Shown one piece after another: positions 17,164-57,537 of a stretch of DNA of 64,000 nt. The notes beneath the pieces are model-generated. The model was not told where the DNA came from, did no database searches, and worked only from the letters and a program-made list of their open reading frames with translations. A program made the position numbers and the translations under genes. Position 1 is the first letter of the stretch; every line of letters starts with the position of its first letter. The DNA is from Methylotenera sp. G11 (GTDB lineage Bacteria > Pseudomonadota > Gammaproteobacteria > Burkholderiales > Methylophilaceae), in the NCBI RefSeq assembly GCF_000799735.1, contig NZ_JUHH01000001.1:558001-622000 (forward strand), given 5' to 3'.

Positions 17164-17173
17164 GACCCCCGCA

Positions 17174-19264: not shown

Positions 19265-19499
19265 GTCGTCATTCCGGCATACGACTTTGCAAGTGCTTTA
19301 GCGCTTAGAAAATCGGAGTGCCTGTGGTACGGAGGCCGGAATCCAGGCAAGGTGATATTTAGAGTGTTGATTTTAAAAAAATTAATGTAGAAATCCATAC
19401 ACAACTTAATTCTTTTTTAAAAATTAATATGGATCCTTGCTTGTACCATTTTATTTGACCATGAAACCTGTCTGGATTCCGGCCTCCGCCGGAATGACG
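19265..19499. repeat. Dispersed repeat, copy A
   Basis: About 235 bp between rep and uup, bounded by GTCGTCATTCCGGC on the left and GCCGGAATGACG on the right. Shared blocks with copy B (63147-63364) include GGAATCCAG, CAAGGTG, TTTAGAGT, TAATGTA, GAAACCTG and CTGGATTCCGGCCT. The interior is AT-rich and non-coding. This is the main content of the 334-bp gap 19193-19526. Confidence 0.75.
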
Positions 19500-24763: not shown

Positions 24764-26707
24764 CTAAATATCTTCCGGCCGCCCTACCCCGTACCCTAAC
24801 ACCCCATCAAGATGTAAATCAACCAGTAATTTCCATTGATCCGCATCTTCTACAGCAACGCCATAAACCTTGATATCCAGGCCGTGCGCCACTTGTGCTA
24901 CAGATTCGATCAGGAACTGGTTATCCTTGTTATCGACAAGCCCATGCACGTAGCCGCCGTCTATCTTAATATAATCCAGCTTGAGCTTGCTCAGGTAGCC
25001 AAATGAAGAGAAACCGCGTCCAAAATGATCAAGGCCGACACGCGTGCCGTACACTGCAAGCTTCTTGATGAATTCCCTGAGGGCTTCTATATTCTCAAGA
25101 ACACCATACTCAGGAACCTCGATCAGCAACCTGGAAGCGGCTGCTGGATTTTCAGCCAATTCAGCGCAGAGCCAATCAACAAAAACCTGGTTCTGGACAC
25201 TGGATGGAAAAATGTTGACCGCAATGGGTGTAGCGCCATAACGCTTGGCTACCAGTCTTGAAAACACCTCAGCGACCATGACCTTGTCAAAATCCATGGC
25301 GAGGCCATGCCGGTTTGCCATCTGGGTATATATCCTGGCAGGAATCATTTCCCCTTTGGCGTCAGTAAGCCGCATCAGCGCTTCGTAGTGCAGTATTGCA
25401 GCAGCAGCATCCTTGACCGGCTGCATCAATAAAGACAAACGGTTGTTCTGTAACGCTTCTCGCAGCACTTCACCCCAATGTGTCGAAGTATTGACGACGC
25501 TCGCAACAGATTTCGACGGCACCACCAGATGCATCGCATTAGGCCCTTCATGCTGTGCGGTGCGCAATGCAAGGTCGGTTGCCGACATCACCTCGCCATA
25601 GCTTTCATTACTGAACAGCGCGATGCCGACATGCCCGACTTCATCAGCTTCCACCAGGCCACGCTCCTTGAACCTTGGCAATGAGCGCGCAATCCTGTCA
25701 CCCAGGTCAGCGGCCTCCTGTTCATCGACATTGCTGATCACGACGGCAAAAGTTGCGCCGGATAAGTGTGCTACAAAGTACTCCTGATTAGGCTGCGCCT
25801 TGCAGATTGCATTAATGAAACTTGCCGTGTTGCGCAGCAGTTCGTCACCGGCCTGGAAACCGTGCGTCTTGTTGTATTCCTTGAAATTTTTCAGCTCAAG
25901 AAGAATCACGGCGCCGTGTTCACCTGTTTTAATCAGATGATTAAGCTGCATGTCGAAATAACGCCTGTTGGCCAGATTGGTCAGGCTATCCAGGTAGTTT
26001 TCAGAACGCAGGCGTTCAATTGAGGCAGACTGCTCGTCAAACATCTGCCTGACCTTATTCGTCATGCGGTTCATGGCTTCAACAACGCTGCGCAATTCAA
26101 TGGTCCACGGCAGCCTGGTCTGTATCGGGTACTCGCGGTCACAGATTGCACGCGCCTGCGCTTCTACCATGCGCAAAGGATTAAGTATGTAATGCAGGGC
26201 GACCACTCCCAGGATTGCAGCCAGTACCGACATGCCTGCAAACCACAGGAAAGTCTGTATCGCACTCGACCACAAGGACATATAGGCATAACCAGGGTTT
26301 ACCAGAACCTTGACCATACCCGCCTGCTGCCAGCCGGACATGATCAGCGCCTCACCCGGCGGCGTATCCAGTTTGAACATATCAATAAACCATTCAGGCA
26401 CATCATTCAGATTGACCTGCTGTGTTTTGTTAATGATGGTTTTACCCTCGACATCGGTAACCAGCACCTGGCGATAATAACCACTATCAGAAACGGCGCT
26501 GACCATGCGTTCGACCATGACGTAATCCTGGTCGCTGATGTGCGGGGATAAAGACATGCCCAGCGAGGTTGCGGTGTCCTGGGAGATGGTGCGCAATTGG
26601 TTATTCAGATAACTGCGCGTATTTTCTATGCTAAGTGAAAATGAGCCTATGAATAGCATCGTAAAAAGCAGGACTATCATCGCCAAAAGCTGCTTAAGTA
26701 ACGTCAT
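24764..26707 (-). CDS. lapD: LapD-type c-di-GMP receptor
   Basis: A 647-residue inner-membrane receptor of the LapD/MoxY class. A first membrane helix at residues 5-25 is followed by a periplasmic LapD_MoxY domain, a second helix (~150-172), a HAMP segment, and GGDEF- and EAL-like domains. Both are degenerate: the GGDEF position reads SGATF, and the DDFGTG motif of EAL enzymes reads DHFGRG. It should therefore bind c-di-GMP rather than make or break it. In characterised systems LapD bound to c-di-GMP holds the protease LapG away from the adhesin. lapG starts 20 bp upstream in the same operon. AAAGGA precedes the start. Confidence 0.92.
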   Translation of the reverse strand: MTLLKQLLAMIVLLFTMLFIGSFSLSIENTRSYLNNQLRTISQDTATSLGMSLSPHISDQDYVMVERMVSAVSDSGYYRQVLVTDVEGKTIINKTQQVNLNDVPEWFIDMFKLDTPPGEALIMSGWQQAGMVKVLVNPGYAYMSLWSSAIQTFLWFAGMSVLAAILGVVALHYILNPLRMVEAQARAICDREYPIQTRLPWTIELRSVVEAMNRMTNKVRQMFDEQSASIERLRSENYLDSLTNLANRRYFDMQLNHLIKTGEHGAVILLELKNFKEYNKTHGFQAGDELLRNTASFINAICKAQPNQEYFVAHLSGATFAVVISNVDEQEAADLGDRIARSLPRFKERGLVEADEVGHVGIALFSNESYGEVMSATDLALRTAQHEGPNAMHLVVPSKSVASVVNTSTHWGEVLREALQNNRLSLLMQPVKDAAAAILHYEALMRLTDAKGEMIPARIYTQMANRHGLAMDFDKVMVAEVFSRLVAKRYGATPIAVNIFPSSVQNQVFVDWLCAELAENPAAASRLLIEVPEYGVLENIEALREFIKKLAVYGTRVGLDHFGRGFSSFGYLSKLKLDYIKIDGGYVHGLVDNKDNQFLIESVAQVAHGLDIKVYGVAVEDADQWKLLVDLHLDGVLGYGVGRPEDI

Positions 26708-36800: not shown

Positions 36801-38210
36801 CTAGCGCTCGCGCATGGCATCATACCTGGCCTTGATGATGGGCTTGAGCAGATAACTCAGGATGGTTTTCTTGCCAGTTTTTATGTGTACTGTCGCAACC
36901 ATGCCAGGCATGATAGGGAGCGCCTTTTTGCTGGCACTGAACGTGGTTGATTTCGTGCGCACGCGGACAATGTAGAAGCTCTCGGTTTTATCGCCTTTCT
37001 CGGTTGTGATCGTATCCGCGGTGATATTCTCGACATTTGCATCAAGGCCACCGTAGATTGAGAAGTCATAGGCGGTCACCTTGACAGTGGCTTCCTGGCC
37101 GGGGCTGATAAAACCGACATCTGAAGGACGGATTTTGGTTTCCACCAGTAAATTATCCTCCAAAGGTACGATTTCCATCACTTCCATGCCTGGCTGAATC
37201 ACGCCACCGACCGTTGTGACCTTGAGCTGCTTGATAATTCCGGCTACGGGAGACCTCACTGCGGTACGCGCCAGCCTGTCTTCCGCTGCCATGCTGACAG
37301 CACTGGTACCGGCCAGCTCGGCTCTGGCCAGGTTCAGGTCGGCGGCTGCATCGGAGCGGAATTTTGCCATGGAAGCCGTGATTTTGGAGCGTGCCTCGGC
37401 TGAGGCCTGTTCCAGCCGCGGTATCGCCAGACGCGCGGCATCCATCTGCCCTTTCACGTCACTTAACTGGCGTTCCAGACGCAGGATCTCCACCGCCGAC
37501 ATCACGCCCTGGGCGGCCATAGGCTTGCTGATTTTAAGCTCCTGACTCACTAAATCATGGCTTTCCTGCAGCTGCTGGTAACTGGCTTTCTTTTCACTCA
37601 GCTCCTGAGCACGCTGTTCAGCCTGCTGGCGAAGCACCATCATCGCGGTATTCAGTTCCTGCTGGCGCGTTTCCATGAGCATCCGCTCCTCATTGACCAG
37701 CTGCGGGTTGGTTTTCATGAGTTCAGCGGGCGGCTTAAATGGCTGGCCGGTTGCTTCGGCCTCCAGGCGCGACACTTTTGCCAGCAGGGCTTCCTGCTTG
37801 GCCTGCGTCTCATTCATGGATGAAGAAAAACGTGTCGGATCCAGCTTCATGATGATCTGGCCTTTCTGCACCAGATCGCCAACCTTGACCGGAATGTCGG
37901 AAACGATACCGCCTTCCAGATTCTGGATCACCTGCACCTGGCTGGAGGGAATCACCTTGCCCTCGCCCACGGTGATTTCATCGATCTCGGCAAAATAAGC
38001 CCAGATCAGGAAAATGAATATAAATGCAAACACACTGCGGATAATCATGGAACCAAAGCGTGGCGCAGACTCAAACAGTGCAGCATTGCTGTCAGACAGC
38101 AGCTCAATATCGCTGCTGCTTACCTGCTGCGGCTTTATGGAAAAAAATTCAATCAATCTCGAAAACAGCGATATTACGTTTTTCTTCTTTGGATCAGTTT
38201 TTTGCAACAT
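36801..38210 (-). CDS. lapC: Type I secretion membrane fusion protein (LapC-like)
   Basis: A 469-residue HlyD-family adaptor. One membrane helix (~57-76, SVFAFIFIFLIWAYFAEI) leads into a barrel/lipoyl half (GEGKVIPSSQVQVIQNLEGGIV), a long coiled-coil hairpin (~150-320, rich in Q, E and A) and the returning lipoyl/barrel half (RSPVAGIIKQLKVTTVGGVIQPG). It bridges the LapB ATPase to the TolC-like channel. GGAGGATTAA precedes the ATG. Its start overlaps the end of lapB by 17 bp, which indicates translational coupling. Confidence 0.93.
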   Translation of the reverse strand: MLQKTDPKKKNVISLFSRLIEFFSIKPQQVSSSDIELLSDSNAALFESAPRFGSMIIRSVFAFIFIFLIWAYFAEIDEITVGEGKVIPSSQVQVIQNLEGGIVSDIPVKVGDLVQKGQIIMKLDPTRFSSSMNETQAKQEALLAKVSRLEAEATGQPFKPPAELMKTNPQLVNEERMLMETRQQELNTAMMVLRQQAEQRAQELSEKKASYQQLQESHDLVSQELKISKPMAAQGVMSAVEILRLERQLSDVKGQMDAARLAIPRLEQASAEARSKITASMAKFRSDAAADLNLARAELAGTSAVSMAAEDRLARTAVRSPVAGIIKQLKVTTVGGVIQPGMEVMEIVPLEDNLLVETKIRPSDVGFISPGQEATVKVTAYDFSIYGGLDANVENITADTITTEKGDKTESFYIVRVRTKSTTFSASKKALPIMPGMVATVHIKTGKKTILSYLLKPIIKARYDAMRER

Positions 38211-40365
38211 TTAATCCTCCACCTGCTAATGCTTTTAAAATCTGATCTTTTGGCCCGTCTGCAACAATGCGCCCGTTGTCAATGACAAGCAGCCTGTTGA
38301 CCAGGGTCAGCATCGAAGACCGGTGTGTAATCAGTATCAGCGTCTTGCCTTGCGTGTGCTGTTCCAGCTTCACCTTAAGGTTATCTTCGCTGCGATTATC
38401 CAGCGAGTTGCTTGGGTCATCCAGCATCAGGATCGGCGGATCCAGCAGCAGGCCCCGCGCAATTGCCACCGACTGTTTCTGCCCGCTGGACAAGCCGGCA
38501 CCACGCTCGCCTATCGGCATATCGAAACCTTGCGGATGGCGGTTGATGAACTCGGATGCGCAGGAAATGTTCGCGGCACGGATTACCGCCAGGTCATCGA
38601 CATAGGGTGCGCCAAGCACTATGTTGTCACGCACCGTGCCAAAGAACAGCAAAGGCTCATCCGGCACATAACCGATATTCTTGCGCAGTTCTGCCGGATC
38701 AATCTGGCGTATATCGACACCGTCGACCCATATCGAACCTTCTGTAGGCTGGTACAGCCCCAGAATGAGCTTTTCGATGGTGGTTTTACCGGAACCGATA
38801 CGGCCTATGATGCCGAGACGATCACCTGGTTTCACATGAAAAGAGACATTCTGCAATGCCCCGACCTGCTGGCCGGGATAACTGAAACTGACATTCTTGA
38901 ATTCAATCTCGCCTTTAAAGCTCTGGCGATTCACAAAACTCTTTCCTGGCTCGCGTTCAACGGGAAGCGCCATCATGCGGTTGATACCGTCAAGTGCGGC
39001 ACGGGCATGATGAAAGCGGGTCAACAATGAAGCGATTTGCGACAGTGGCGCCAATGCGCGCCCTGATAGCAGGCTGCAGGCCACCAGCGCGCCCATGGTC
39101 ATTTCTTTTTCCGATATCAGGTAAACCCCTGCCACCACTACGCCAACCGTCGCCATAGTCTGGAAGAAAGTGGCGGAGTTCGTCGCCAGCAATGACAGCA
39201 CACGCGCCTTTAAGCTCAGTTTGCCAAGGTGGCCGATCTGCTGTTCCCACCGGCGCTGCATAGGCCCTTCGGCACCGATGGCCTTGATGGTTTCCAGCCC
39301 GGTCAGCGTTTCGATTAAGGTAGCCTGCCGTTGTGAAGATGTGCGGAATGTCTCGCCGATCACGCTTGCGAGCGACTTCTGCACCATGAAAGATACCATC
39401 AGGATCAATGGCGCCGCCACCAGCACCGGAACGACAGCTACGCCGCCCAGCCACCAGATAATGAAAAGGAATATCACCAGGAACGGCAAATCAACCAGGG
39501 TAGTGATCGTTGCGGATGTGATGAATTCACGGAAAGACTCAAACTCCTGCACACTGCTGGCGATGGCGCCTACGGACTGCGGCCGGGCTTCCATGCGGAT
39601 GGCCTGGATCCTCTCAAAAATATTGGCGGATAAAATAATGTCTATTTTTTTGCCGGCAACATCAATGAAATATCCTCTCAGCGTGCGCATCACGAAGTCG
39701 AATATATAAATGACAACGACCCCGACAACAAGCACCCACAAGGTTTCAAACGTATTGTTAGGGACAACGCGATCGTACACATTCATCGTGAATAAAGGTA
39801 TCGCCAATGCAAAGAGGTTCACAAGCAGCGATGCCGCAAGGACTTCGCTATAGATCGGCCAGGCCAGTTTTACCGTATCCCAGAACCAGTTCACAGGACG
39901 TGGAATGAAACTGACATCCGAACGGCTGTCAAACTTGAAAGCCGGTTTAACGTAAATGGCAAAGCCTGTGTAAAGTGCGCCAATTTCCTCCAGCGGCACT
40001 TCCATCTCGGCGGCTCCGGCTTCCGGGCTCAGCAAGCGCACCGATCCATTCCTGGCATTCCGCAGCAGGATGGCTGCCCCGCCATCCTTTAGCAGCAGCA
40101 CTACCGGCAACGTAATATCGGCGATCTTGTCCAATGGGCGTTTCACAACGCGCGCAGTCAAGCCGGCGCGCGCTGCCGCCCGCGGGAACAGGTCGGGGGT
40201 AAGCCGCGATGAATCAAGCGGCAATCCTGCAATCAGGGTTTGGGCTGAAAATGGCCGGTGCTGGATCCTCGTCAGCAACACCAGGCAATTAGTCAGTGGA
40301 TCATCTGGGAGCAAAGCGTCTTTGGGTATATCCCAGGCTTCTTTTTTTATTGCACTTTCAGCCAT
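38194..40365 (-). CDS. lapB: Type I secretion ABC transporter (LapB-like)
   Basis: A 723-residue ABC exporter with an N-terminal C39-like domain (~15-150), a six-helix membrane domain (~165-450) and a nucleotide-binding domain (Walker A GRIGSGKTTIEK, signature LSSGQKQSVAIA, Walker B ILMLDDPSN). The residue after the Walker B aspartate is Asp instead of the usual catalytic Glu, which is worth noting. I start at the ATG at 40365, six bases behind AAGGAA, not at a codon 21 bp upstream. It should export the RTX adhesin together with LapC and the TolC-like protein. Confidence 0.92.
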   Translation of the reverse strand: MAESAIKKEAWDIPKDALLPDDPLTNCLVLLTRIQHRPFSAQTLIAGLPLDSSRLTPDLFPRAAARAGLTARVVKRPLDKIADITLPVVLLLKDGGAAILLRNARNGSVRLLSPEAGAAEMEVPLEEIGALYTGFAIYVKPAFKFDSRSDVSFIPRPVNWFWDTVKLAWPIYSEVLAASLLVNLFALAIPLFTMNVYDRVVPNNTFETLWVLVVGVVVIYIFDFVMRTLRGYFIDVAGKKIDIILSANIFERIQAIRMEARPQSVGAIASSVQEFESFREFITSATITTLVDLPFLVIFLFIIWWLGGVAVVPVLVAAPLILMVSFMVQKSLASVIGETFRTSSQRQATLIETLTGLETIKAIGAEGPMQRRWEQQIGHLGKLSLKARVLSLLATNSATFFQTMATVGVVVAGVYLISEKEMTMGALVACSLLSGRALAPLSQIASLLTRFHHARAALDGINRMMALPVEREPGKSFVNRQSFKGEIEFKNVSFSYPGQQVGALQNVSFHVKPGDRLGIIGRIGSGKTTIEKLILGLYQPTEGSIWVDGVDIRQIDPAELRKNIGYVPDEPLLFFGTVRDNIVLGAPYVDDLAVIRAANISCASEFINRHPQGFDMPIGERGAGLSSGQKQSVAIARGLLLDPPILMLDDPSNSLDNRSEDNLKVKLEQHTQGKTLILITHRSSMLTLVNRLLVIDNGRIVADGPKDQILKALAGGGLNVAKN

Positions 40366-40447
40366 AACGTTCCTTAGCAAAGTCAATTATTGGGCAAATG
40401 GTTATGTTTATAAAATCCGGGGCGGGCTTTGTTTACGGCACCCCGAT

Positions 40448-40795
40448 TTACAGAATCCCATTATCCGACACGACAATATCATTGGTGCCGGACAGTCGCC
40501 CGCGCGCATCAAGCCGGTTAACGATCTTTTCACGCACTTTCGATGGCAGGTCAGTAAAGGTGATGACGTTCTTATCGATCAAGACATCAATCAAGTCCTC
40601 GATAACGCGGATAAAATCAATATCCGATTGCGTTAAATCCATCAATGCATCATTGGTGAGATTCTGGGGTGGGTTGCCGCCAAAAAACCGGAGAATATCG
40701 GCATGGTCATTAGGCAGGAATTCGGTTACATTGGTTTGGGGCCTTAAAAAAATCCCGGTAATCAGACCGGCAGCATCTCGACTTACGTAAGGCAT
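40448..40795 (-). CDS. Small conserved protein next to lapB
   Basis: A 115-residue soluble acidic protein. It opens with MPYVSRDAAGLITGIF and has a conserved-looking DIDFIRVIEDLIDVLIDKNVITFTDLP core. Proteins of this pattern are often database-named 'tryptophan synthase subunit beta-like', but nothing here resembles the PLP enzyme and I would not use that name. The function is unknown. The ATG at 40795 is favoured because AAGGG lies 7 bp upstream; an ATG two codons earlier is too close to it. It lies 82 bp upstream of lapB on the same strand, so it may belong to the secretion operon. Confidence 0.7.
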   Translation of the reverse strand: MPYVSRDAAGLITGIFLRPQTNVTEFLPNDHADILRFFGGNPPQNLTNDALMDLTQSDIDFIRVIEDLIDVLIDKNVITFTDLPSKVREKIVNRLDARGRLSGTNDIVVSDNGIL

Positions 40796-40952
40796 GGTCA
40801 TACCCTTGTATTAATGATTGCGTTTGATAATAACATGGAAAATAATGCGCTTATGTACCACATAATTTGCGGTTATCCATATTAACAATTATTTACAATG
40901 ATCCGCCAGCAGCATGGCTATTATTGAAAAAAACCAAAATGAAGGCAGCACA

Positions 40953-41627
40953 ATGAATTTCCTAGTCAGCAAAAATCCAGTTCTGATTGACCAGTATTGG
41001 AATATTTTGCTGGAACAAGGTTCGTCATTATTACTATCCGACTTCACAGACCTGGTGTGGAGGGCGAAAACATCAGATAAAGGGCTGGTGCTCGTGGACA
41101 CCCAGGTCGATGGCTTTGCCGGGATGCATAGCCTCACCGAGCTGAAACGCATCAACCAAAGCCTCAAAGTGCTCATCATCGCGATTGACCTGACAACCGA
41201 AGACGAGCTGTCGGCACTGGCAGCAGGGGCATCCGGCAGCTGCCGATCCAATCTGCTGCCGGATAAAGTACGCCAGATATTTACCACAGTGCAGGATGGC
41301 GGTGTCTGGATTTCAAGCACGGGGTTACCGCAGTTATTGCAGCGTTTCAAGCGCCTGGAAGAGATGTCGAGTAAAAACGCTCCAAAAAATGAATCTGCCC
41401 AGCAGCATGAAAAAATATCGTCATTGACCCCGCGCGAACGAGAAATCGTAGAATTGGTCGCAAGCGGCGATTGCAATAAAATCATCGCCAGCAAACTCAA
41501 CATTGCAGACCGTACCGTAAAGGCGCATTTGTCAGTGATATTTCAAAAACTGAAAGTCAACGACCGACTGCAATTAGCCTTGCTGGCTAACAAGTCCTTG
41601 GATAATAAAAATCGTGCCGGTTTATAG
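40953..41627 (+). CDS. LuxR-family regulator with atypical receiver
   Basis: A 224-residue protein. The N-terminal ~115 residues resemble a receiver domain (VLVDTQVDGFAGMHSL, then LIIAIDLTTEDELSALAAGASG) but lack the usual acidic pair near the start, so phosphorylation is doubtful. The C-terminal HTH is a clear LuxR/FixJ type (SLTPREREIVELVASGD ... DRTVKAHLSVIFQKLKV, residues ~150-205). I use the ATG at 40953, preceded by AAGGCAG, rather than one 13 codons upstream. It diverges from the small gene of the lapB operon and precedes the riboswitch-controlled cluster. Either could be its target. Confidence 0.85.
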   Translation: MNFLVSKNPVLIDQYWNILLEQGSSLLLSDFTDLVWRAKTSDKGLVLVDTQVDGFAGMHSLTELKRINQSLKVLIIAIDLTTEDELSALAAGASGSCRSNLLPDKVRQIFTTVQDGGVWISSTGLPQLLQRFKRLEEMSSKNAPKNESAQQHEKISSLTPREREIVELVASGDCNKIIASKLNIADRTVKAHLSVIFQKLKVNDRLQLALLANKSLDNKNRAGL

Positions 41628-41715: not shown

Positions 41716-41735
41716 CAATGCAGGCGCCTGCATTG
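41716..41735. promoter_or_regulatory. 20-bp perfect palindrome
   Basis: CAATGCAGGC followed by its exact reverse complement GCCTGCATTG. It ends 28 bp before a -35 box. It could be an operator for the riboswitch promoter, or the stem of a terminator for the LuxR-type gene, though no T-tract follows. Confidence 0.45.
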
Positions 41736-41763: not shown

Positions 41764-41792
41764 TTGACACTTAACAATTCCCACAGTAGGAT
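41764..41792 (+). promoter_or_regulatory. Sigma70-type promoter of the riboswitch transcript
   Basis: TTGACA (41764-41769, perfect -35) and TAGGAT (41787-41792, -10) with 17-bp spacing. Transcription would start near 41799, about 75-80 nt before the riboswitch core. Confidence 0.65.
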
Positions 41793-41869
41793 TGCGGTCT
41801 TTAATGTATGCATTTGATTGAATCACCTGATCAAATGCCATGCAATATATTTAAATTGCGTTAAGTTTT

Positions 41870-41965
41870 TAAAACGATAAAAGGCAAACCATTCGAAAGA
41901 TTGGGGCGCAAAGTTACCGGTCTAATGAGCCCAGGCTCTATGACAGCGGGATTGCTAAATAGAAT
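41870..41965 (+). promoter_or_regulatory. Class I c-di-GMP riboswitch (GEMM-I)
   Basis: The core matches the GEMM-I consensus in order: GGCAAACC, a short helix capped by a GAAA tetraloop (ATTCGAAAGATTGG), the invariant GCGCAAAG, then ACCGG-TCTAATG, a small stem (GAGC-CCAG-GCTC), CTATGA and AGCGGGATTGC. The CTAATG/CTATGA pair is the tetraloop receptor that docks the GAAA loop. It binds c-di-GMP and controls the downstream gene. A CCCCGG followed by TTTTTT (42001-42012) about 40-50 nt on could be the 3' arm of a terminator, with GCGGG of the aptamer as a possible partner. The first gene of the plus-strand cluster begins about 400 nt downstream. Confidence 0.92.
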
Positions 41966-42371
41966 TGCACAGATCGATTCCAACAGCTCTACCCACATAT
42001 CCCCGGTTTTTTGCTTTGTATGCCATCAGCATTCCTACGGCTGCCCTTTTCGTTTTAACGCTGCATGCAATATTAAATGGATGTGTGTTCACAATTTAAT
42101 GCACATCATTTGCCATCATTAAAACTGACTTTTTACAGAGTGAAGACTTATTGCTTAAAAAATAAAAAATCCATTTATTGAATAGTATTTAAAAACAACC
42201 GCATAAAAAAGGCGGTGAAGAATAAATTTGAATGACCTCAACTTTAATCAACAAAGGAATTATTTCGGAAAGTTGGTAATTGTACTGTTATAGCAACTTA
42301 AAACAGTGCCGAAAGCACAGCTGAAAAACATCATCAGTTGCAATTGTCGATCAAAGAAATTTTATTTAAAT

Positions 42372-43028
42372 ATGTTAACTGGATTTTCTGGCAAGACCGC
42401 TGGCGCAACAGCTACAGCCATAGTACCGGCTACCCATTTACTCACTATAGTACAGCGCATACTCAACTCACAGGACAATACTAAAATCACCCTGCCTGGC
42501 ATGGGTGCCATCAGCATATTCCCGCTGCGCCGTGAGTATCACGCTGATGTCGAACACATGGAAGCGTTCTGCACTTCACCTGCTGCAGAATTTGAAATCA
42601 CGCTACTCGACAGCCAGGCGCCAGCTGCGGTCTCACACGCGAAGAGGGATGTCAGGGACCTGCTCTGGCAGCTTGCTTTCTATATTCATGAAGAAAGCCT
42701 CATCGAAGGCTGCTCTGAAAACGATGTGATTCAATTCAGCCGCTGGCCGAACCTGACACGGTTGCCGACCACCCCGAATACAGCGCGGATAAGCGCACTG
42801 CTCACTCGCCACCCTACATCGGTCACGCTGGTGAGGCGTATCCTGGGAATCGATAAAAGTGAAGTAAACCGCGTCATCAGCGCAGCCATCAGCGCCGGTA
42901 TCGTGAATACGGTGAGCCACGCCCCATCCCTGGCAAGCCCTGATTCATCGATCACTGAAACAAAAGCAGTGCCGTCGCAAAAACCCAGCCTGTGGAATTC
43001 CCTGTTCGCAAAAATCTCAAGTCTGTAA
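42372..43028 (+). CDS. Unknown protein with C-terminal winged-helix-like region
   Basis: A 218-residue protein that I do not recognise by name. The N-terminal half is mixed alpha/beta (ATHLLTIVQRILNSQDNTKI, LPGMGAISIFPLRREYHAD) and shows no catalytic motif. The C-terminal half (RWPNLTRLPTTPNTARISAL, then RRILGIDKSEVNRVISAAIS) reads like a winged-helix or effector-type helix bundle. The last 40 residues are low complexity. It is the first gene behind the c-di-GMP riboswitch and ends 3 bp before the small GTPase gene, which suggests a GTPase partner. The start is uncertain: ATG at 42372 or GTG at 42306, neither with a strong ribosome-binding site. Confidence 0.7.
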   Translation: MLTGFSGKTAGATATAIVPATHLLTIVQRILNSQDNTKITLPGMGAISIFPLRREYHADVEHMEAFCTSPAAEFEITLLDSQAPAAVSHAKRDVRDLLWQLAFYIHEESLIEGCSENDVIQFSRWPNLTRLPTTPNTARISALLTRHPTSVTLVRRILGIDKSEVNRVISAAISAGIVNTVSHAPSLASPDSSITETKAVPSQKPSLWNSLFAKISSL

Positions 43029-43031
43029 ACC

Positions 43032-43577
43032 ATGGAAAACAAAATCATTTTTGCAGGTCCGGTCGGATCCGGAAAAACCACATCAATCAGTTCTGTCAGC
43101 GACATTCTGGTAGTCGGTACGGAGGCGAAAGCGACCGACGAGGTTGCACAGCGCAAGGATAATACTACCGTAGCCATGGATTACGGCATCCTGAATCTTG
43201 AAGGTGGCAGTAAAGTGCATCTTTACGGCACACCCGGGCAGGACCGCTTCAACTTCATGTGGGAAATCCTGAGCGAAAACGCGATGGGCTTCGTCATCCT
43301 GATCGATAGCGCAAGGCCAGATCCGCTGGCAGACCTGGACCATTACCTGACGGCATTCAGCAAACCTATCGCTAAATGCAATGGCGTGGTTGTGATTGGC
43401 GTTACCCGCACCGAGCTCAACCCGCAGGGCGGGCTGCTGGATAAACTCCATGAGCGTGTGATGGCGCATCAATTGAATATCCCGATTTTAGAAGTGGACG
43501 GGCGTGAGCGGCAGGATGTGAAACAAATGCTGCTAGCCCTGCTCGCTTTGCTGGACCCAAGCACAAGCCGCCATTAA
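43032..43577 (+). CDS. Ras-like small GTPase
   Basis: A 181-residue single-domain GTPase of the prokaryotic Ras-like/MglA-related class. The P-loop is GPVGSGKTT (residues 9-17), the switch I region TTVAMDYG (45-52), and the G3 motif YGTPGQDRF (65-73), with a Gln as in eukaryotic Arf/Ras proteins. The usual NKxD is replaced by GVTRTEL (123-129), as in related bacterial GTPases. No lipid-attachment signal or membrane helix is seen. Such GTPases are commonly paired with Roadblock/LC7 proteins, two of which lie downstream. The gene sits 3 bp after the unknown protein and 6 bp before the ABC-phosphatase fusion. Confidence 0.9.
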   Translation: MENKIIFAGPVGSGKTTSISSVSDILVVGTEAKATDEVAQRKDNTTVAMDYGILNLEGGSKVHLYGTPGQDRFNFMWEILSENAMGFVILIDSARPDPLADLDHYLTAFSKPIAKCNGVVVIGVTRTELNPQGGLLDKLHERVMAHQLNIPILEVDGRERQDVKQMLLALLALLDPSTSRH

Positions 43578-43583
43578 TCCGAT

Positions 43584-44957
43584 ATGAATAAAATAGTGCC
43601 TATACTGTTACCCGAGCCGCATAAAAGCATGCCTGCAAGCGCTGAGCAGCAAGAAGCCGGCGAAATCCCGACGTCTTCTGCCCCCTTGCTGGTGCTCAAT
43701 AATTTCGGCGTCGCTTTCGGTAAAAAAGTCGTGTTATCCGAAATCACGCTCAGCATCCCTGAGCTGGGAGCATTCGTGCTGCTGGGACCTTCCGGTACCG
43801 GCAAATCGACTTTGTTGCGCACGCTGGCCGGGCTCAGCAGTGCCAGCCCGTCTTTCCGCATGTGGGGTGAAGCCTATTATCGCGGGGCGGTTCTAACCGA
43901 GAAGGAACGGCCGGATCTCGTAGCCCAGAGCGCCCAGCTCATGATGTCCTCGGTACTTGAAAATATCGTGGTAAACCTGCCTGAGCGCAACCAGCTGACG
44001 CGAGCCATGCAATACGATCTTGCCAGGCGCCTGCTTCAGCATGCAGGCCTGGACGAGTTATGCGACAAACTGGACCTCCCCGTGGTGCAACTGCCTTTGG
44101 CACTGCAGCGCCATCTTTCCATTCTGCGCGAGGTAGTGTCCAGCCCGCATCTCTTATGTATCGATGAACCGACCACCGGGCTCAATGACCATGAAAGCGC
44201 CCGCCTGTTGAACTACCTGCGTGAGGAATCGACACGGCGCGCCCTGCTGGTCGTTCTGCACAACCAGCAACATGCAAGGCAGTTAGGTGGTACGGCGATC
44301 CTGATCGCGGGCGGCCAGGTGCAGGAACAGCAAGCAATCCCGCAGATATTCGACAGACCGGTTTCCCATGCGGCACGCGAATTTTCACGCACCGGCTCAT
44401 GCAATGTAGCCAGCCCGGGCACGCCTCCTGAGCATCTTGATGATTCTGTGATACCGGCAAAGCCATTACCCAAGGCAGCGCTGGCAGGATCAAGAAGCCA
44501 GTCCGGACCCCGCGGGTTTTTATGGCTAAAAAAAGGAAAACTCGCAGGCACTCCTGTACCCGGCGTTTATTTCGATATGGAATATGACCTGAAGGCATTG
44601 CAGCGTGTAGGCATCACCACACTGATCACACTGACAGAAACCGCCCTGGATAACGCAAAACTTGCACCTTTCGGGATCAGGAGCATCTGGGAACCGATTC
44701 CCGATATGGAGGCGCCATCAATCGAGCAAGGCATACGCATCTGCAAATTGATTGAAACCCTGCTTACGCAAGGCCAGGTCATTGCGGTGCATTGCCGCGC
44801 CGGGCTTGGCCGTACAGGCACCATACTCGCTGCACACCTGATCTGGGAAGGAAAAGGTTCGCTCAGCGCATTGGAATATGTACGTAGAATCGAACCACGC
44901 TGGGTGCAGTCCGAAGCGCAAGTCAAATTCCTGGAAACGTTTTCAAACAGGGTATGA
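43584..44957 (+). CDS. ABC ATPase fused to dual-specificity phosphatase
   Basis: A 457-residue soluble fusion. Residues ~35-260 are an ABC ATPase with Walker A GPSGTGKST (68-76), a Q-loop VAQSAQ, and Walker B LLCIDEP (190-196). The LSGGQ signature is replaced by QLPLALQRHLS (169-179), and there is no permease partner, so transport is unlikely. Residues ~325-455 are a dual-specificity/tyrosine phosphatase with the catalytic HCRAGLGR (H403, C404, R410) followed by TG, and a likely general acid D374 in IPDMEAPS. This pairing is unusual. It may be a signalling ATPase with a phosphatase output that works with the adjacent GTPase. It starts 6 bp after that gene. Confidence 0.88.
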   Translation: MNKIVPILLPEPHKSMPASAEQQEAGEIPTSSAPLLVLNNFGVAFGKKVVLSEITLSIPELGAFVLLGPSGTGKSTLLRTLAGLSSASPSFRMWGEAYYRGAVLTEKERPDLVAQSAQLMMSSVLENIVVNLPERNQLTRAMQYDLARRLLQHAGLDELCDKLDLPVVQLPLALQRHLSILREVVSSPHLLCIDEPTTGLNDHESARLLNYLREESTRRALLVVLHNQQHARQLGGTAILIAGGQVQEQQAIPQIFDRPVSHAAREFSRTGSCNVASPGTPPEHLDDSVIPAKPLPKAALAGSRSQSGPRGFLWLKKGKLAGTPVPGVYFDMEYDLKALQRVGITTLITLTETALDNAKLAPFGIRSIWEPIPDMEAPSIEQGIRICKLIETLLTQGQVIAVHCRAGLGRTGTILAAHLIWEGKGSLSALEYVRRIEPRWVQSEAQVKFLETFSNRV

Positions 44958-45073
44958 AACACCACCGACATTCAAGAATCATCTCCCGCTCCATAACGAG
45001 ATAGTGATGAGGCAGTAAAAACAGCAAAATAATTGCAACTAACAACTTAATTAATCAAGAAAAGGAATTTTAT

Positions 45074-45478
45074 ATGACCAAATTAAATGATGCTTTACAG
45101 GCAGCGACCACATCAATCCCAGAATGCCTGGCAGCAGGCTATATCGACCTTGCCAGCGGCATGCTGCTCGGCATCAAGTCCGTGGACTCGCAGCCGACAG
45201 AAGTCGTTGAATTGCTGGCGGCTGCAACTGCCGATTTGTTTCAGGGCCCAAATGTAAAAATGATCGAAAGCATCTTTAAAAAAGCGCGCGGCCTTGCAGA
45301 AGACGGCCATCATTACTTTCAGGAAATCATCATCAACAGCGACAACCTGATTCACATCTTCATCCGCGGTAAAAACGAAGAGCAGGTTGCCTGTTTTGTA
45401 TGCCGCAAATCAGCCAACCTCGGCATGGTACTGACAAAATCACGCAGCAACATGCCTATGGTAGAAGCTGCACTGTAA
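45074..45478 (+). CDS. Roadblock/LC7-like protein 1
   Basis: A 134-residue protein whose pattern fits the Roadblock/LC7 (profilin-like) fold: an N-terminal helix, a GYIDLASGMLLGI strand pair, a long central helix (EVVELLAAATADLF), three strands (YFQEIIINSDNLIHIFIR, QVACFVCRK) and a closing helix region. Roadblock proteins bind small GTPases and act as activating or scaffold partners, as MglB does for MglA. AAGGAATTT precedes the ATG. A 116-bp gap separates it from the fusion gene, and a strong intrinsic terminator follows it. Confidence 0.7.
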   Translation: MTKLNDALQAATTSIPECLAAGYIDLASGMLLGIKSVDSQPTEVVELLAAATADLFQGPNVKMIESIFKKARGLAEDGHHYFQEIIINSDNLIHIFIRGKNEEQVACFVCRKSANLGMVLTKSRSNMPMVEAAL

Positions 45479-45488
45479 TCACACAGCG

Positions 45489-45524
45489 CCCCGGAGCAGG
45501 GATGTACTGCAACGGGGTCTTTTT
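45489..45524 (+). terminator. Intrinsic terminator between the two Roadblock genes
   Basis: CCCCG-ga-GCAG ... CTGC-aa-CGGGG forms a stem with a small symmetric internal bulge (45489-45517), followed by TCTTTTT. It lies inside the same-strand gene cluster, so it may split it into two transcripts or act as a partial stop. Confidence 0.7.
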
Positions 45525-45561
45525 ACTCTAAATCAGCCAGTTCAGCTGGAAAGCGTTTCAT

Positions 45562-45975
45562 ATGTATAGCACCCAAAAAACTCCTGAAGAGGCACGTACA
45601 TCAGCCTTAAGGTCTGTATTACGTGAACTTAATGCAACTTCTGACGACATTGAAGCATCGGCATGTATTTCAAGTGACGGCTTCAGCCTCGCCGCAGTCC
45701 TTGGCAACAACGTCGATCCTGACCGTTTTGGCGCGATGTGCGCATCCCTGCTGGCACTTGCCCAGCGTGCTGCACAGGAAGTGCAGCGCGGCAATCTGAA
45801 ACTGGTACTGGTTGAAGGCGAACAAGGCGTAATGCTGCTGGTACAGGCAGGGCCAAACACCATCCTCGCCGTTGCAGCCAAACCCAGCAAAAACCTTGGC
45901 ATGATTTTCATGGATGCCAAGAAATTCTCCAAAAAACTGCTTGAAACCCTGGAAAGCCATCCATTAAAAACGTAA
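45562..45975 (+). CDS. Roadblock/LC7-domain protein 2
   Basis: A 137-residue Roadblock/LC7 protein, closer to the MglB-type consensus than its neighbour: LRSVLRELNATSDDIEASACISSDGFSLAA at the start, a central helix (RFGAMCASLLALAQRAAQEV), then LKLVLVEGEQGVMLLVQAGPNTILAVAA and a final helix. The expected role is regulation or scaffolding of the small GTPase encoded 2.5 kb upstream. GGAAAG precedes the ATG. The ferredoxin-globin gene starts 15 bp after its stop. Confidence 0.88.
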   Translation: MYSTQKTPEEARTSALRSVLRELNATSDDIEASACISSDGFSLAAVLGNNVDPDRFGAMCASLLALAQRAAQEVQRGNLKLVLVEGEQGVMLLVQAGPNTILAVAAKPSKNLGMIFMDAKKFSKKLLETLESHPLKT

Positions 45976-45990
45976 CAACAGACCTGAACC

Positions 45991-47607
45991 ATGGCACACC
46001 TAAAATACCAGTCACATGACCAGCAGAGCCGTGATATTCATTCACGAAACGCTGAAAACGTACTTGACGCATTGCTGCGTCAAGGCATCAACATCCCATT
46101 CTCCTGCCGCAGCGGCGTCTGCCACGTATGCGTGCAGCAATGCAGGCATGGCGATATCCCACCGTCAGCGCAGAAAGGATTAGCGCCGGAACTCGTAAAA
46201 CAAGGCTATTTCCTGCCCTGCCAGTGCACGCCTGTGGGCGATATGCAGATTGCCGCTCCCACCGGGCTTTTCCAGACCACGCTGGTTCACAGCAAGGAAA
46301 TGCTTTCATCCCACGTGTGCAGAATACTGCTGGAACCGCCAACCGACTTCGCTTACAAAGCCGGACAGTTCATCAACCTGCGCCGCCCGGATGGCATCAC
46401 GCGCAGCTACTCACTCGCCAGCCTGCCAGCTGAAGATTATTTCCTGGAACTGCACGTGCTGCGCCAGGATGGCGGCATCATGAGCAACTGGCTCGTCGAT
46501 GAACTCAATACCGGTGACGGCATCGACATCCAGAACGCAGAAGGCAGCTGCCATTACCAGACAACGGCGGAAGATTCTCCTCTGCTGATGATAGGCACCG
46601 GAACAGGACTGGCACCGCTGATCGGGATTGTGCGCGATGCCCTGCACCACCGCCATCAGCATGAGATTCATCTTTATCACGGCGGCAGGAGCACAGACCG
46701 GTTTTACCTGCACGAGCAATTACGGCAGCTGGAACAGGCGCATAGCAATTTCCATTATCACGAATGCATATCCGGCACTTCTGAAGTACCGGAAAACACC
46801 TTTGCCGGGCGTGTGCATGAGATCGCCTTCTCACGGCATCCGAATGTGCATGGCTGGAATGTCTATCTTGCCGGCCTTGCCGAAATGGTCGACAGCGGCA
46901 CCCTGCTCGCGGCCAGGCATGGCGCACTGCCACATCACATCCATAGTGATGCCTTTACGCTGCGTGACTTACGCCAGAACAAGCGTGAGGACAGCAAGCC
47001 TCAGCCTGAAGATGATGATAGCGCTAAATACCCACCGCCGGATGCAGCGCTATGGGCAGCGCTGCAGGACGGAAAACTGCTCACATCCATACTCACGGAT
47101 TTCTATACCATGGTGTATGCCGACGAGAAACTTGCGTCATTTTTCAACGGCGTCACCAAGCAGCGCCTGATCGAAAAACAATACCTTTTTATTCGCCAGA
47201 TACTCACGGGAGAAAAAGTGTATTTTGGCGACAGGCCACGCAATTCGCACCACTGGATGGTGATCTCGGATGAACTGTTTGACCATCGCGAATCCATCAT
47301 GCTGCACTGCCTGCACAAGCATGGCCTGCCGGAGCCCATGATACACAGGTTCATGGAAATGGAAGGTTTCTACAGGCGCGACATTGTGAAAGCCGCTCCT
47401 TTTGCACGCGTGATAGGCGGCATAGAAAAACCATTTGAAGGTTTTGATGAAATCACGATGGACGTAGGTACCCTGTGCGACAGCTGCTCGCGCGAAGTAG
47501 CGCCTGGCGAAAAGGTCATCTATCACGTCCGCATAGGCAAAATCCATTGTTCGGACTGCAGCACCCGGCATCATCATGAGATACCACCGGCAAATGCCGG
47601 CGTTTAG
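45991..47607 (+). CDS. Ferredoxin-FNR reductase-truncated globin fusion
   Basis: A 538-residue multidomain redox protein. Residues 1-90 are a plant-type [2Fe-2S] ferredoxin (C39, C44, C47, C77). Residues ~95-325 are a ferredoxin-NAD(P)+ reductase-like unit with flavin motif RSYS (138-141) and nucleotide motif IGTGTGLAP (201-209). Residues ~350-468 are a truncated-globin-like domain with probable proximal His420 (SHHWMVISDELFD). The tail carries two CxxC pairs (C496/C499, C520/C523) that could form a zinc ribbon. An electron path NAD(P)H-FAD-[2Fe-2S]-heme would suit NO dioxygenase or O2/NO sensing; this is inference. The order and the tail differ from classical flavohemoglobin. Confidence 0.88.
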   Translation: MAHLKYQSHDQQSRDIHSRNAENVLDALLRQGINIPFSCRSGVCHVCVQQCRHGDIPPSAQKGLAPELVKQGYFLPCQCTPVGDMQIAAPTGLFQTTLVHSKEMLSSHVCRILLEPPTDFAYKAGQFINLRRPDGITRSYSLASLPAEDYFLELHVLRQDGGIMSNWLVDELNTGDGIDIQNAEGSCHYQTTAEDSPLLMIGTGTGLAPLIGIVRDALHHRHQHEIHLYHGGRSTDRFYLHEQLRQLEQAHSNFHYHECISGTSEVPENTFAGRVHEIAFSRHPNVHGWNVYLAGLAEMVDSGTLLAARHGALPHHIHSDAFTLRDLRQNKREDSKPQPEDDDSAKYPPPDAALWAALQDGKLLTSILTDFYTMVYADEKLASFFNGVTKQRLIEKQYLFIRQILTGEKVYFGDRPRNSHHWMVISDELFDHRESIMLHCLHKHGLPEPMIHRFMEMEGFYRRDIVKAAPFARVIGGIEKPFEGFDEITMDVGTLCDSCSREVAPGEKVIYHVRIGKIHCSDCSTRHHHEIPPANAGV

Positions 47608-47616
47608 GAGTTTTGT

Positions 47617-48255
47617 ATGTTTTTTGGCGTTACACACGTTGATGTACCCGTTTGCGACCTGGCAAGGTCAGAGGAGTTCTGGGGCAAGCTGATCGGCTTG
47701 CAGAAAATCAAGCATGGCGAAGGTTTCATTGACCTGGATTCAGGCTCCGTGATCCTGCGCCTCATCCATGTCAACCAGATTACGCGTCCCGTCACTTTAA
47801 GGGTCAGTGTGCCGGATGTGAAGGTCGCTTTCGACAAACTGATAGGTTCAGGCGGCCGTGCGCTGTATGAGATTCAGCGTACGCCAGCCCTGGAACTGGA
47901 GGCTCATGTTGCTGACCCGGACGGCAATTCTGTAGTGGTATGGCGAGAACTGAACGAAGATGAATATGGCTTTGTTCCGGAACTGCCCAAACAAGGTGAG
48001 TGGCATAGCGACGCTGAAGAATTATTCAACGAACTGCTTAAATACGTTCCAGCCCTGTTCCGCGCCATGGCAAGGCGCAAGGTGACTAAAATCATTGAAG
48101 AAGTCGCGGGCTATGACCATTCTCCGGTAACGCGCCAGCATGTGATACGCGGCTACATACTGGCCAGTGCCAAAATCAAACGCGATCGCCTGATTGAACC
48201 GCTGAAGATGTGCGGCATAGACCCGGAAAACTACAAAGAAGAGTTTGACGCCTGA
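47617..48255 (+). CDS. VOC-domain protein with PCP_red-like C-terminus
   Basis: A 212-residue protein in two parts. Residues 1-115 form a glyoxalase/VOC fold (FFGVTHVDVPVCDLARSEEFWGKL, then EAHVADPDGNSVVVWREL); most metal ligands of true glyoxalases are not evident. Residues ~125-205 resemble the small domain at the C-terminus of the light-independent protochlorophyllide reductase B subunit (PCP_red: DAEELFNELLKYVPALFRAM, ITRQHV-like VTRQHVIRGYI). No photosynthesis genes are present, so the domain has another use here. TAGGAG precedes the ATG, and the gene lies 9 bp after the globin fusion as the last gene of the cluster. Confidence 0.78.
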   Translation: MFFGVTHVDVPVCDLARSEEFWGKLIGLQKIKHGEGFIDLDSGSVILRLIHVNQITRPVTLRVSVPDVKVAFDKLIGSGGRALYEIQRTPALELEAHVADPDGNSVVVWRELNEDEYGFVPELPKQGEWHSDAEELFNELLKYVPALFRAMARRKVTKIIEEVAGYDHSPVTRQHVIRGYILASAKIKRDRLIEPLKMCGIDPENYKEEFDA

Positions 48256-55797: not shown

Positions 55798-57537
55798 ATG
55801 GGAGCGCAACTTAATCTTAATGATTTGCATGCAAAGCTATCGTTGCCGATACGATTCGCTGTTGCAGTCATTATTTTTTTAATTGCACTCACGCTGCGCA
55901 TCTGGGCATGGCAGCCTGAATCCGGGCTGGCTTTCATCACGTTTTATCCGGCGGTATTCTTGTGTTTTTATCTTTGCGGGTCCCAGCCTGGGGCTCTCGT
56001 TACGATTCTTTCTGCTGTTTCCGCCTTCTATACTTTCTCGCCGCCCTACTGGTCATTCAACGTCACCAACGAAAACATCAGCGCAGCTGCGTTCTTCCTG
56101 GTATCTGCCTGGGTAATGGGCTACGTACTCACCAGAGGGCATTACTGGCACAACCAGCTTATCAGTAAAGAACACGACAGGCTTGAAGAAATCGGCAAAG
56201 AACTGCAGACAACCAATGAACTGCTGATGCTGGCTGAACGCTCAGTCAGCGCCGGCGCATGGCGCTGGTATATCGACACGGACAGGATGGTCTGGTCCGA
56301 ACAACTATATAAACTCTTCTGCCTGAATCCCGACGTTGACAAGCCAACCTTTGAGACCTGGCGCAAGATCGTGCATCCGGACGATCTTAAAGGTGCAGAA
56401 AACCTGATAAAAGAGGCTAGCCGCAACCTGAACGCTTTCGTGACATTTTACCGTGTCATCCTGCCTACCGGCCATATCCGCTGGATTGACAGCTATGGAG
56501 GCCCGATCTATGACAAGCAAGGCAAGCTGGTTGAATTTTCCGGTATCTGCATCAACTCAACGAGCCTGCATCTGGCGGAGCAGCAGATACAGGAAAGCGA
56601 GCAACGGTTCCGCAACATGTTCACCAACCTTACGGTCGGATACCAGGCACTTGATATCAACGGCTGCTGGCTGGATGCGAACCATAAAATGGCGCACATA
56701 CTGGGCTTTGCAACACCGGAGGAAATGATAGGCCAACGCTTTACCGACAGCTGGTCTGATGTGGCCGAAGGATTCGCCACCTTCTACCAGCACTTTAAAG
56801 ACCACAATTTTGTGGAAGGCGAATTCATGCTGAAACGCCGTGATCAGCAGCCGATTACGGTCATCATTTCAGGTCGCATCCAGCGCAACAAGGAAGGCAA
56901 GTTCATTTGTGCCCATAGTGTGATTATCGACATCACTGAACGCCAGAAGATGGAACAGAAAATTATCGATATGAATGCCGAACTGGAATTAAAAATAGCG
57001 GCACGCACCGCGGAACTCTCGAAAGCCAATGAAGACCTGCGGCACCTGTCAAGGCATGATGCCCTGACCGGAATGCATAACCGCTTATCCGCTAACGAAA
57101 GATTACGCTCGGAATTCATCAGCATGAAACGTTCCCAGAATAATTATGCAATCCTGATGCTGGATATTGACTTCTTCAAGGAGGTTAACGACATCCACGG
57201 ACATGCCATTGGCGATAGCGTTTTGCAGCAGCTGGCGCAGATATTGAAGACCACGCTGCGAGAGAGTGACTTTGCCGCCCGTTATGGCGGGGAAGAATTC
57301 CTGCTGCTGCTGCCGAACACCGAACTGTTCGAAGCGAGGTTAGTGGCCGAAAAGATTCGCCACACCATAGAAGCCACACCGCACCCCGTTGCCGGGAAAA
57401 TAACGGTGAGCATCGGTGTCGCTATCGCGACCCCTGAAGAGGTGGACGAATATATCGCGGTAAAAGAATCTGATGATTATCTGTATGCCGCTAAAAAGTC
57501 CGGACGCAACTGCATCATGGCGGCAACGCATCACTGA
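55798..57537 (+). CDS. DUF4118-PAS-PAS-GGDEF diguanylate cyclase
   Basis: A 579-residue membrane protein. Three to four N-terminal helices (~18-110) with the FITFYPAVFLCFYLCG pattern match the DUF4118 (KdpD-like) membrane domain. Two PAS/PAC units follow (~150-265, WRWYIDTDRMVWSEQLYKLF; ~270-390), then a coiled linker and a GGDEF domain (DALTGMHNRLSANERL; RYGGEEF near residue 496). The active-site motif is intact as GGEEF, so c-di-GMP synthesis is likely. I use the ATG at 55798 rather than a GTG seven codons upstream. It diverges from the HD-GYP gene, possibly an antagonistic pair. Confidence 0.9.
   Translation: MGAQLNLNDLHAKLSLPIRFAVAVIIFLIALTLRIWAWQPESGLAFITFYPAVFLCFYLCGSQPGALVTILSAVSAFYTFSPPYWSFNVTNENISAAAFFLVSAWVMGYVLTRGHYWHNQLISKEHDRLEEIGKELQTTNELLMLAERSVSAGAWRWYIDTDRMVWSEQLYKLFCLNPDVDKPTFETWRKIVHPDDLKGAENLIKEASRNLNAFVTFYRVILPTGHIRWIDSYGGPIYDKQGKLVEFSGICINSTSLHLAEQQIQESEQRFRNMFTNLTVGYQALDINGCWLDANHKMAHILGFATPEEMIGQRFTDSWSDVAEGFATFYQHFKDHNFVEGEFMLKRRDQQPITVIISGRIQRNKEGKFICAHSVIIDITERQKMEQKIIDMNAELELKIAARTAELSKANEDLRHLSRHDALTGMHNRLSANERLRSEFISMKRSQNNYAILMLDIDFFKEVNDIHGHAIGDSVLQQLAQILKTTLRESDFAARYGGEEFLLLLPNTELFEARLVAEKIRHTIEATPHPVAGKITVSIGVAIATPEEVDEYIAVKESDDYLYAAKKSGRNCIMAATHH

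Follow-up and report, generated by a model that had tools for sequence, protein, structure and literature searches.

A putative elaboration of the Group 3 MglA operon in Methylotenera sp. G11, with an ABC ATPase-phosphatase, a ferredoxin-reductase-globin protein and a predicted c-di-GMP riboswitch

Group 3 MglA proteins are small GTPases of beta- and gamma-Proteobacteria which, in the available text of Wuichet and Sogaard-Andersen (PMC4316618), are encoded together with a receiver-like/winged helix-turn-helix (wHTH) protein and one or two MglB proteins. The wHTH companion is encoded upstream and combines N-terminal receiver-like with C-terminal wHTH regions; MglA GTPases have PGQ in a G3 motif that lacks the usual Asp, and those of Groups 2 and 3 depart from [NT]KxD at G4 and have a DAR-type G5 (PMC4316618). 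Here we describe a cluster of seven genes, A to G, in Methylotenera sp. G11. The stretch analysed, referred to below as the window, has a length of 64 000 nucleotides and represents bases 558001-622000 of a single-contig 2.545-Mb genome. The cluster resembles Group 3 loci in its companion with a predicted C-terminal wHTH (A), its MglA-type GTPase with an odd G4 and, at G5, a motif close to DAR (B), its one or two Roadblock partners (E and D) and the beta- and gamma-proteobacterial hosts (PMC4316618). It differs in adding an ATP-binding cassette (ABC) ATPase-phosphatase (C), the subfamily to which D belongs, a globin protein (F) and, at some loci, a riboswitch for cyclic di-GMP (c-di-GMP), and in that A of the window lacks the N-terminal receiver-like region. 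The words 'phosphatase' and 'globin' do not occur in the main text of PMC4316618. An initial annotation, based on the DNA letters and their open reading frames (ORFs), had presented the cluster as a candidate new system. This is too strong for the GTPase core, as the Group 3 MglA pattern in the published text (PMC4316618) already fits A and B together with the Roadblock proteins; the new components are the D-C pair, the ferredoxin-reductase-globin-CxxC protein F and the riboswitch.

Other described systems share fewer of these features. The actinobacterial conservons, which contain Group 2 MglA, are likewise operons of a small GTPase and a Roadblock protein, to which some add a cytochrome P450 or a GAF protein as accessory, but they have a histidine kinase and CvnC core, belong to another phylum and have no ABC-phosphatase named in the available text (PMC13343842). 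The Myxococcus MglA/MglB pair also consists of an MglA-like GTPase and a Roadblock partner, but belongs to Group 1 (PMC4316618) and acts in motility polarity. HGbRL of Methylacidiphilum couples a globin to a Roadblock domain and was proposed to be a sensor; unlike the proteins encoded here, it is a single fused two-domain protein with an N-terminal globin of another type and, as described there, no reductase (PMC4476040). It is a precedent for globin-Roadblock coupling and corrects the initial annotation, to which a link between a GTPase-Roadblock pair and a heme protein was not known; F as a companion of such a pair was nevertheless unreported among the literature matches listed. Flavohemoglobin Hmp resembles F in combining a globin and an FAD/NAD reductase in one chain (PMC4476040), whereas F adds a 2Fe-2S ferredoxin and a CxxC tail and has a globin of truncated type placed behind the reductase. 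With respect to GEMM-I riboswitches (RF01051), the aptamer found here is full length and the type of target operon differs. Among the open-access literature matches listed (subscription papers and preprints being outside this scope), there was no GTPase/Roadblock target of GEMM-I and no MglA/Roadblock operon described as having a c-di-GMP riboswitch, nor any report of ABC-phosphatase or ferredoxin-reductase-globin companions or of a Roadblock protein tied to an ABC ATPase-phosphatase. We know of no Myxococcus MglA/MglB operon containing C- and F-like genes.

The seven same-strand ORFs are intact and start with ATG (Table 1). The gaps between them are 3, 6, 116, 83, 15 and 9 bp, so that the original description of gaps of mostly 3-15 bp is correct for four of the six but not for those of 116 and 83 bp. 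Pfam searches confirmed the domain make-up proposed for B, C, E and F. Gene A probably starts at 42372 rather than at a GTG at 42306, because the same start was found in L007, the numbers with prefix L denoting loci in other genomes. The promoter proposed upstream is present as a TTGACA-N17-TAGGAT sequence, with a counterpart, TTGACA-N17-TAGCAT, at the equivalent position in L007, but such sites are no commoner in the region than in shuffles (5 found, shuffle mean 6.9).

Table 1. Features of the gene cluster, with positions in the window
Feature	Position	Strand	Basis
Promoter-like TTGACA-N17-TAGGAT	41764..41792	+	10/12 consensus positions
c-di-GMP-I (GEMM-I) riboswitch aptamer, predicted	41873..41959	+	RF01051
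Leader, 412 nt, aptamer to A	41960..42371	+	L007 comparison, folding
A, 218-aa protein, C-terminal winged helix	42372..43028	+	Pfam below cut-off, model, locus comparison
B, MglA-type small GTPase	43032..43577	+	Pfam, motif alignment
C, ABC ATPase + dual-specificity (DSP)-type phosphatase fusion	43584..44957	+	Pfam, alignment
D, second Roadblock-fold protein (predicted), highly conserved	45074..45478	+	Predicted model, structure search
Stem-loop then UCUUUUU, just 3' of D	45488..45518	+	Folding z -2.99
E, Robl_LC7 (MglB-like) protein	45562..45975	+	Pfam
F, 2Fe-2S ferredoxin - FAD/NAD reductase - Bac_globin (truncated type) - CxxC...CxxC tail	45991..47607	+	Pfam, alignment
G, VOC/glyoxalase-like + DUF2621	47617..48255	+	Pfam

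A scan of genome contigs with B as the query resulted in 19 loci. In seven of these (L007-L013; from Methylotenera, two Nitrosomonadales, two Gallionella, Rhodocyclaceae and Thiohalophilus) A-B-C-D-E and F were present in near-identical order, with L013 containing only the globin part of F. The other 12 had the GTPase without C; among them, L014 had a weak D-like and an E-like match, and L015 and L024 an E-like match. The neighbourhood search suggested in the initial annotation thus found the genes together in other genomes and not only here. A second survey used D as the query to avoid bias towards B, with a threshold of E <=1e-8 and matches of at least 169 bits classed as strong. Among 399 genomes of the order, seven had matches, six of them strong; the 369 class genomes gave 20 with a match, eight being strong, and a phylum sample of 398 gave 29, of which five were strong and had been counted before, while the others scored 40-69 bits. 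In the phylum survey, family f247 (G8xx-G10xx) included many genomes with distant D-like proteins, some with two to three copies.

Together, the searches gave 18 loci with a strong D match: the window, L007-L013, L053-L057 and L059-L063. L058 was excluded as it is the same place as L013, as were L014-L025 and L064-L072, which have no strong D. C was present at all 18, B at 15, A at 13, E at 12, F at 11, the riboswitch at five and G at two, and A-B-C-D occurred together at 13. C was encoded at most 0.7 kb from D on the same strand at every one of the 18 loci, including three (L055, L056 and L062) at which the C-D pair was found and a GTPase was not found in the stretch. The 11 loci found by D alone contained C in all cases, B in eight, F in four and the riboswitch in one (L013); because of the 11/11 for C and 8/11 for B, D belongs first with C and second with the GTPase. 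L057 and L063 were counted as D-positive, their C being distant (28-31% identity) and their GTPase-like stretches lying within larger proteins. G, which adjoins the cluster only in the window and L007, is not part of the core, so that the seven-gene unit first proposed stands as a conserved set but without G. The expectation of a VOC/PCP_red-like protein was borne out for Glyoxalase; PCP_red matched only below the cut-off, and DUF2621 was identified instead.

Protein D had no Pfam match above the cut-off and no Robl_LC7 match at E 0.1. Its AlphaFold2 model (predicted local distance difference test score, pLDDT, 79.8) shows helices and strands in Roadblock order, and a Foldseek search of this model against known structures gave MglB as the best match (E 2e-6, TM score 0.67), followed by weaker Roadblock structures; the matches included MglB of Thermus and of Myxococcus. 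D is therefore predicted to be a Roadblock-fold protein, and the two Roadblock-like partners of the initial annotation are both retained, E by Pfam and D on the basis of the predicted model. D is the best conserved protein of the cluster (67-96% identity to D of the window) and is encoded in two copies in L008 and L011. Its neighbour C combines ABC_tran with a DSP-type phosphatase (Pfam Tc-R-P, PTP-SAK and DSPc). The phosphatase motif is HCRAGLGRTG in the window, and HCxxGxGRTG is found in 18/18 aligned rows; Walker A and B are kept in the rows spanning them, and LSGGQ is degenerate (for example, LPLALQR) in those spanning it. In L011 (10558-11953) gene C lies in two frames (130 + 322 aa), which may be an assembly error or a broken gene. 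Behind C-D at L055 and L056, and in the same orientation, lie genes judged by eye to be response-regulator-like and histidine-kinase-like and a GGDEF gene, which provides another link of the C-D pair to c-di-GMP.

B was assigned by Pfam to Ras/ATP_bind_1 and has the motifs GPVGSGKT, YGTPGQ, TRTE in place of NKxD, and DGR close to DAR; as a putative GTPase it would bind and hydrolyse GTP. At G3, GTPGQ is invariant in 10/10 rows and the usual Asp is absent; at G4, which departs from [NT]KxD, the TR of the window's TRTE is likewise invariant (10/10 rows); at G5 the middle residue varies, with DGR in the window and DAR in L014. The closest named relative among the genome loci was a Methylotenera bin (87% GTPase identity). 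The winged-helix Pfam matches of A were all below the cut-off. Among the nine best Foldseek matches of its model (pLDDT 72), eight were FAM91A1 or chains of SEA/GATOR1-KICSTOR complexes (E 0.014-0.46) and the fifth-best was a winged helix of RNA polymerase III; no Foldseek match was below E 0.001. When A was compared with solved structures by sequence profile, the top matches were designed repeat proteins, which were taken as artefacts, and there was no FAM91/GATOR support. A PATAN or receiver domain in A was considered and discarded, there being no Pfam match above the cut-off. Homologues of A in L013, L053 and L059 are 374-384 aa in length, with an N-terminal extension that has no Pfam name above the cut-off. 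In L060 the stretch upstream of B (11865-15973, minus strand) contains an A homologue within an 865-aa ORF with GAF and histidine-kinase-type domains and, as judged by eye, a receiver gene with an EAL-like end.

E is the sole Robl_LC7 match in the genome. D and F have an E-like gene between them at nine loci, namely the window, L007-L012, L053 and L060; L012 has an extra E-like Roadblock ORF behind F (8485-8997, + strand; 26% identity, E 7e-6). F consists of Fer2, FAD_binding_6, NAD_binding_1 and Bac_globin domains (Pfam). The four ferredoxin cysteines are kept in all 10 rows having that domain, and the globin motif HHWMV and the CxxC...CxxC tail in 11/11 rows; L013, from Thiohalophilus, has the globin-CxxC part and no reductase. 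A search with the globin and tail of F resulted in matches in 13 of the 369 class genomes at E 1e-10, five of them strong (at least 164 bits) and eight at 43-55 bits. All five strong genomes were among the eight strong-D genomes of the class (hypergeometric 1e-9, or 5e-8 without the window genome, a statistic that treats genomes as independent, which is not quite so). In G798 the globin part was on another contig, and the three remaining strong-D genomes (G129, G598 and G793) gave no F-globin match.

The GEMM-I riboswitch proposed upstream of A was confirmed by a match to RF01051 of 79.6 bits (gathering score 35, E 5e-14) over the full model (1-87/87), the sole match in the whole genome. The aptamer is a predicted c-di-GMP-type riboswitch, which would bind this ligand and control the genes. 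RF01051 was found upstream of A at five of the 18 loci (the window, L007, L008, L011 and L013). Two G residues before CAAA (AAA in L013) are invariant in 5/5 aptamers, and a G at that position presumably favours c-di-GMP over cyclic GMP-AMP (cGAMP). A model built from the five aptamers detected no further strong aptamer in 29 sources; a weak second aptamer-like match in L008 (16106-16205, + strand; 21.5 bits, E 0.07) lies about 200 nt upstream of a large GGDEF gene (16404-19442). Permissive Rfam searches detected no riboswitch in L009, L010, L012, L053, L054, L059, L060 and L061, and none was detected in L055-L057, L062 and L063 at Rfam gathering scores and with the five-aptamer model. In the GTPase tree, one well-supported clade had six rows, of which four were carriers and the two from Gallionella were not, and the Thiohalophilus carrier was placed in a second well-supported clade, in which the other two rows had none; several of the deeper forks in this tree are open. 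The riboswitch would have been either gained twice or lost several times. The proposal of a c-di-GMP-type riboswitch before the cluster is supported in so far as carriers sit in two parts of the tree, so that the tie to the operon is not a local accident; 13/18 D-C loci have no detected riboswitch, which makes the putative c-di-GMP control an add-on. There were 22 GGDEF matches in the genome, and four GGDEF domains are encoded in the window (14518-15033, 22395-22880, 25538-25996 and 57052-57510).

The leader was 445 nt in L007, in which the aptamer-near part was better kept as judged by eye and the middle poorly conserved. The distance from the aptamer to the first possible start of A was 158-445 nt across the five carriers and 158-225 nt in L008, L011 and L013. 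In unconstrained folds this aptamer-near part of the leader can pair with the aptamer, and in the window, L007 and L011 such folds break the aptamer and gain about 10-12 kcal/mol. This would agree with a bistable leader without proving one, as folding ignores ligand and tertiary contacts. Folding with the aptamer enforced covered the 87-nt cases, which are those of the window, L007 and L011; whether or not the aptamer was kept, no one platform common to all five leaders emerged. A transcript end before A, which the initial annotation had named as a possibility that would speak against its model, was not indicated: no terminator-like site was found on the + strand at 41959-42372 in a scan limited to loops of 3-8.

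The stem-loop behind D, which the initial annotation did not mention, is a candidate attenuator or mRNA stabiliser. The mean folding z was -2.3 over 19 stretches after D, 10/19 being below -2, compared with a mean of -0.2 after C as a control (16 stretches, 1/16 below -2); the stem-loop rows are related, hence not 19 independent tests, and the control is imperfect in that short C-D gaps let 75 nt reach into the D gene. L057 was left out of the stem-loop test, and L057 and L063 were left out of the control. The position of the stem-loop behind D, the ribosome-binding site of D and the two D copies in L008 and L011 suggest that the cell produces more D than E and F.

We interpret the cluster as an elaborated Group 3 MglA operon, in which a second NTPase-Roadblock pair (C-D) and the ferredoxin-reductase-globin protein F are added to an A-B-Roadblock core, and give this reading a probability of roughly 0.55. 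It draws on gene content, order and conservation, the predicted fold of D, the catalytic or cofactor motifs kept in B, in F and, apart from LSGGQ, in C, and the riboswitch observed before A at five loci. A number of observations weigh against it. The assignment of B to Group 3 is provisional, being by motifs and neighbourhood; the Arg of G5 is kept in 9/10 rows rather than 10, and A of the window lacks the N-terminal extension of some relatives. ATP hydrolysis by C is doubtful because LSGGQ is degenerate. F is absent at 7/18 loci and an E-like match was not found at 6/18, and the loci L007-L012 are from metagenome bins. The 13 loci at which no riboswitch was found include both Gallionella loci; no single expression platform or switch direction emerged, given the disruption of the aptamer in the unconstrained folds of the window, L007 and L011, and a terminator in the leader was rejected, since L007 does not keep the U-run that follows CCCCGG in the window. 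GGDEF genes are nearby in 6/17 loci, a weak excess (binomial 0.04 against a rough background of own-genome density). The folding z after D is above -2 in the second copy of L008, L009, L010, L053-L056, L061 and L063.

The alternative that we consider possible, if not probable, is that two units adjoin here, with A-D as c-di-GMP-controlled signalling and F as a co-regulated, self-contained NO dioxygenase or O2/NO oxidoreductase akin to flavohemoglobin. The single chain of F holds everything needed to pass electrons from NAD(P)H via FAD and 2Fe-2S to heme, the stem-loop parts D from E-F in the window, and the seven loci without F, together with its place on another contig in G798, would agree with a separable module. 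What speaks for one unit is that, in the 369 class genomes, strong F-globin matches occur only in strong-D genomes (5/5), that the MglB-like E is encoded between D and F at the loci listed above, and that the Thiohalophilus globin-CxxC protein, having no reductase, fits a sensor better than an enzyme. A rather unlikely reading is that A regulates transcription and the operon is a transcription-control circuit, not a spatial switch. Such a role for A-type proteins of Group 3 was suggested by Wuichet and Sogaard-Andersen (PMC4316618, in the available text). The winged-helix matches and the model of A are compatible with it, but the Pfam HTH matches are below the cut-off and the matches of the model are mostly (8/9) to FAM91A1/SEA/GATOR1-KICSTOR chains, none below E 0.001. 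To our knowledge, FAM91A1 and SEA/GATOR1-KICSTOR proteins are not DNA-binding.

It is decidedly unlikely that the riboswitch controls just a short leader RNA or small peptide and that the genes have promoters of their own. The leader is indeed long in the window and L007, with a poorly conserved middle; the shorter distances in L008, L011 and L013, the lack of a terminator-like site in the scanned leader and the recurrence of the riboswitch-A association in two parts of the tree speak against this reading. An anti-phage defence unit was rejected. PADLOC matches were obtained for C, to its ATPase stretches, from seven families (best mad3, 8e-12), but none at E 0.001 for A, B, D, E or F when proteins A-F were scanned, and neither control by a riboswitch nor the presence of a redox protein points to defence.

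In the elaborated Group 3 operon as we picture it, c-di-GMP would act through the aptamer to set expression of the whole unit, by way of the transcript or its translation, and hence the dose of a signalling complex. This complex would contain two NTPases and two Roadblock proteins and have GTPase B and the phosphatase of C as outputs. E may regulate B as MglB does MglA, D may regulate the ATPase of C, and the nucleotide state of C could gate its phosphatase, with D kept in excess over E and F through its ribosome-binding site and the downstream stem-loop. F would sense or remove O2 or NO and relay heme or redox state to a Roadblock protein. The end result may be a surface- or biofilm-related decision, with type IV pili as the most likely target; these are possible since 11 of the 13 matches to PF00437 (secretion/pilus ATPase) in the genome are over the cut-off. 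In Snodgrassella, which has a Group 3 mglA, the available text links the mutation of an orphan mglB outside the locus to gut colonisation and, on the basis of soft-agar spreading, perhaps to type IV pili (PMC11112851). A more far-reaching interpretation, which we consider quite unlikely, is that the operon is a bacterial counterpart in make-up of the eukaryotic Rag-Ragulator-GATOR1 logic, with a Ras-like GTPase, two Roadblock proteins, a FAM91/GATOR1-related winged-helix companion, c-di-GMP and heme/redox inputs, and a Roadblock-governed ABC ATPase that would gate a phosphatase as a second output. Npr2/3 proteins have winged helices in tandem, and their longin domains are related to Roadblock, according to the available text (PMC3521125); the matches of the A model hint at a Rag-Ragulator-GATOR1-like composition without establishing it.

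The region upstream of the cluster (38194-41627 in the window) encodes an ABC transporter with a Peptidase_C39 match below the cut-off, a 117-aa protein and a LuxR-type regulator; the same three are found in the same order in L007, and a palindrome at 41716-41735 may terminate the LuxR-type regulator transcript.

If the proposed working is true, the dose of an MglA-type GTPase switch would here depend on c-di-GMP acting through RNA, and the operon would tie its second Roadblock protein to an ABC ATPase-phosphatase and not to the GTPase. The Snodgrassella study was the only experimental work on Group 3 MglA among the literature matches listed (PMC11112851, as far as the available text goes), and for this family the variant described here would offer concrete inputs, c-di-GMP and O2/NO, and a concrete output enzyme.

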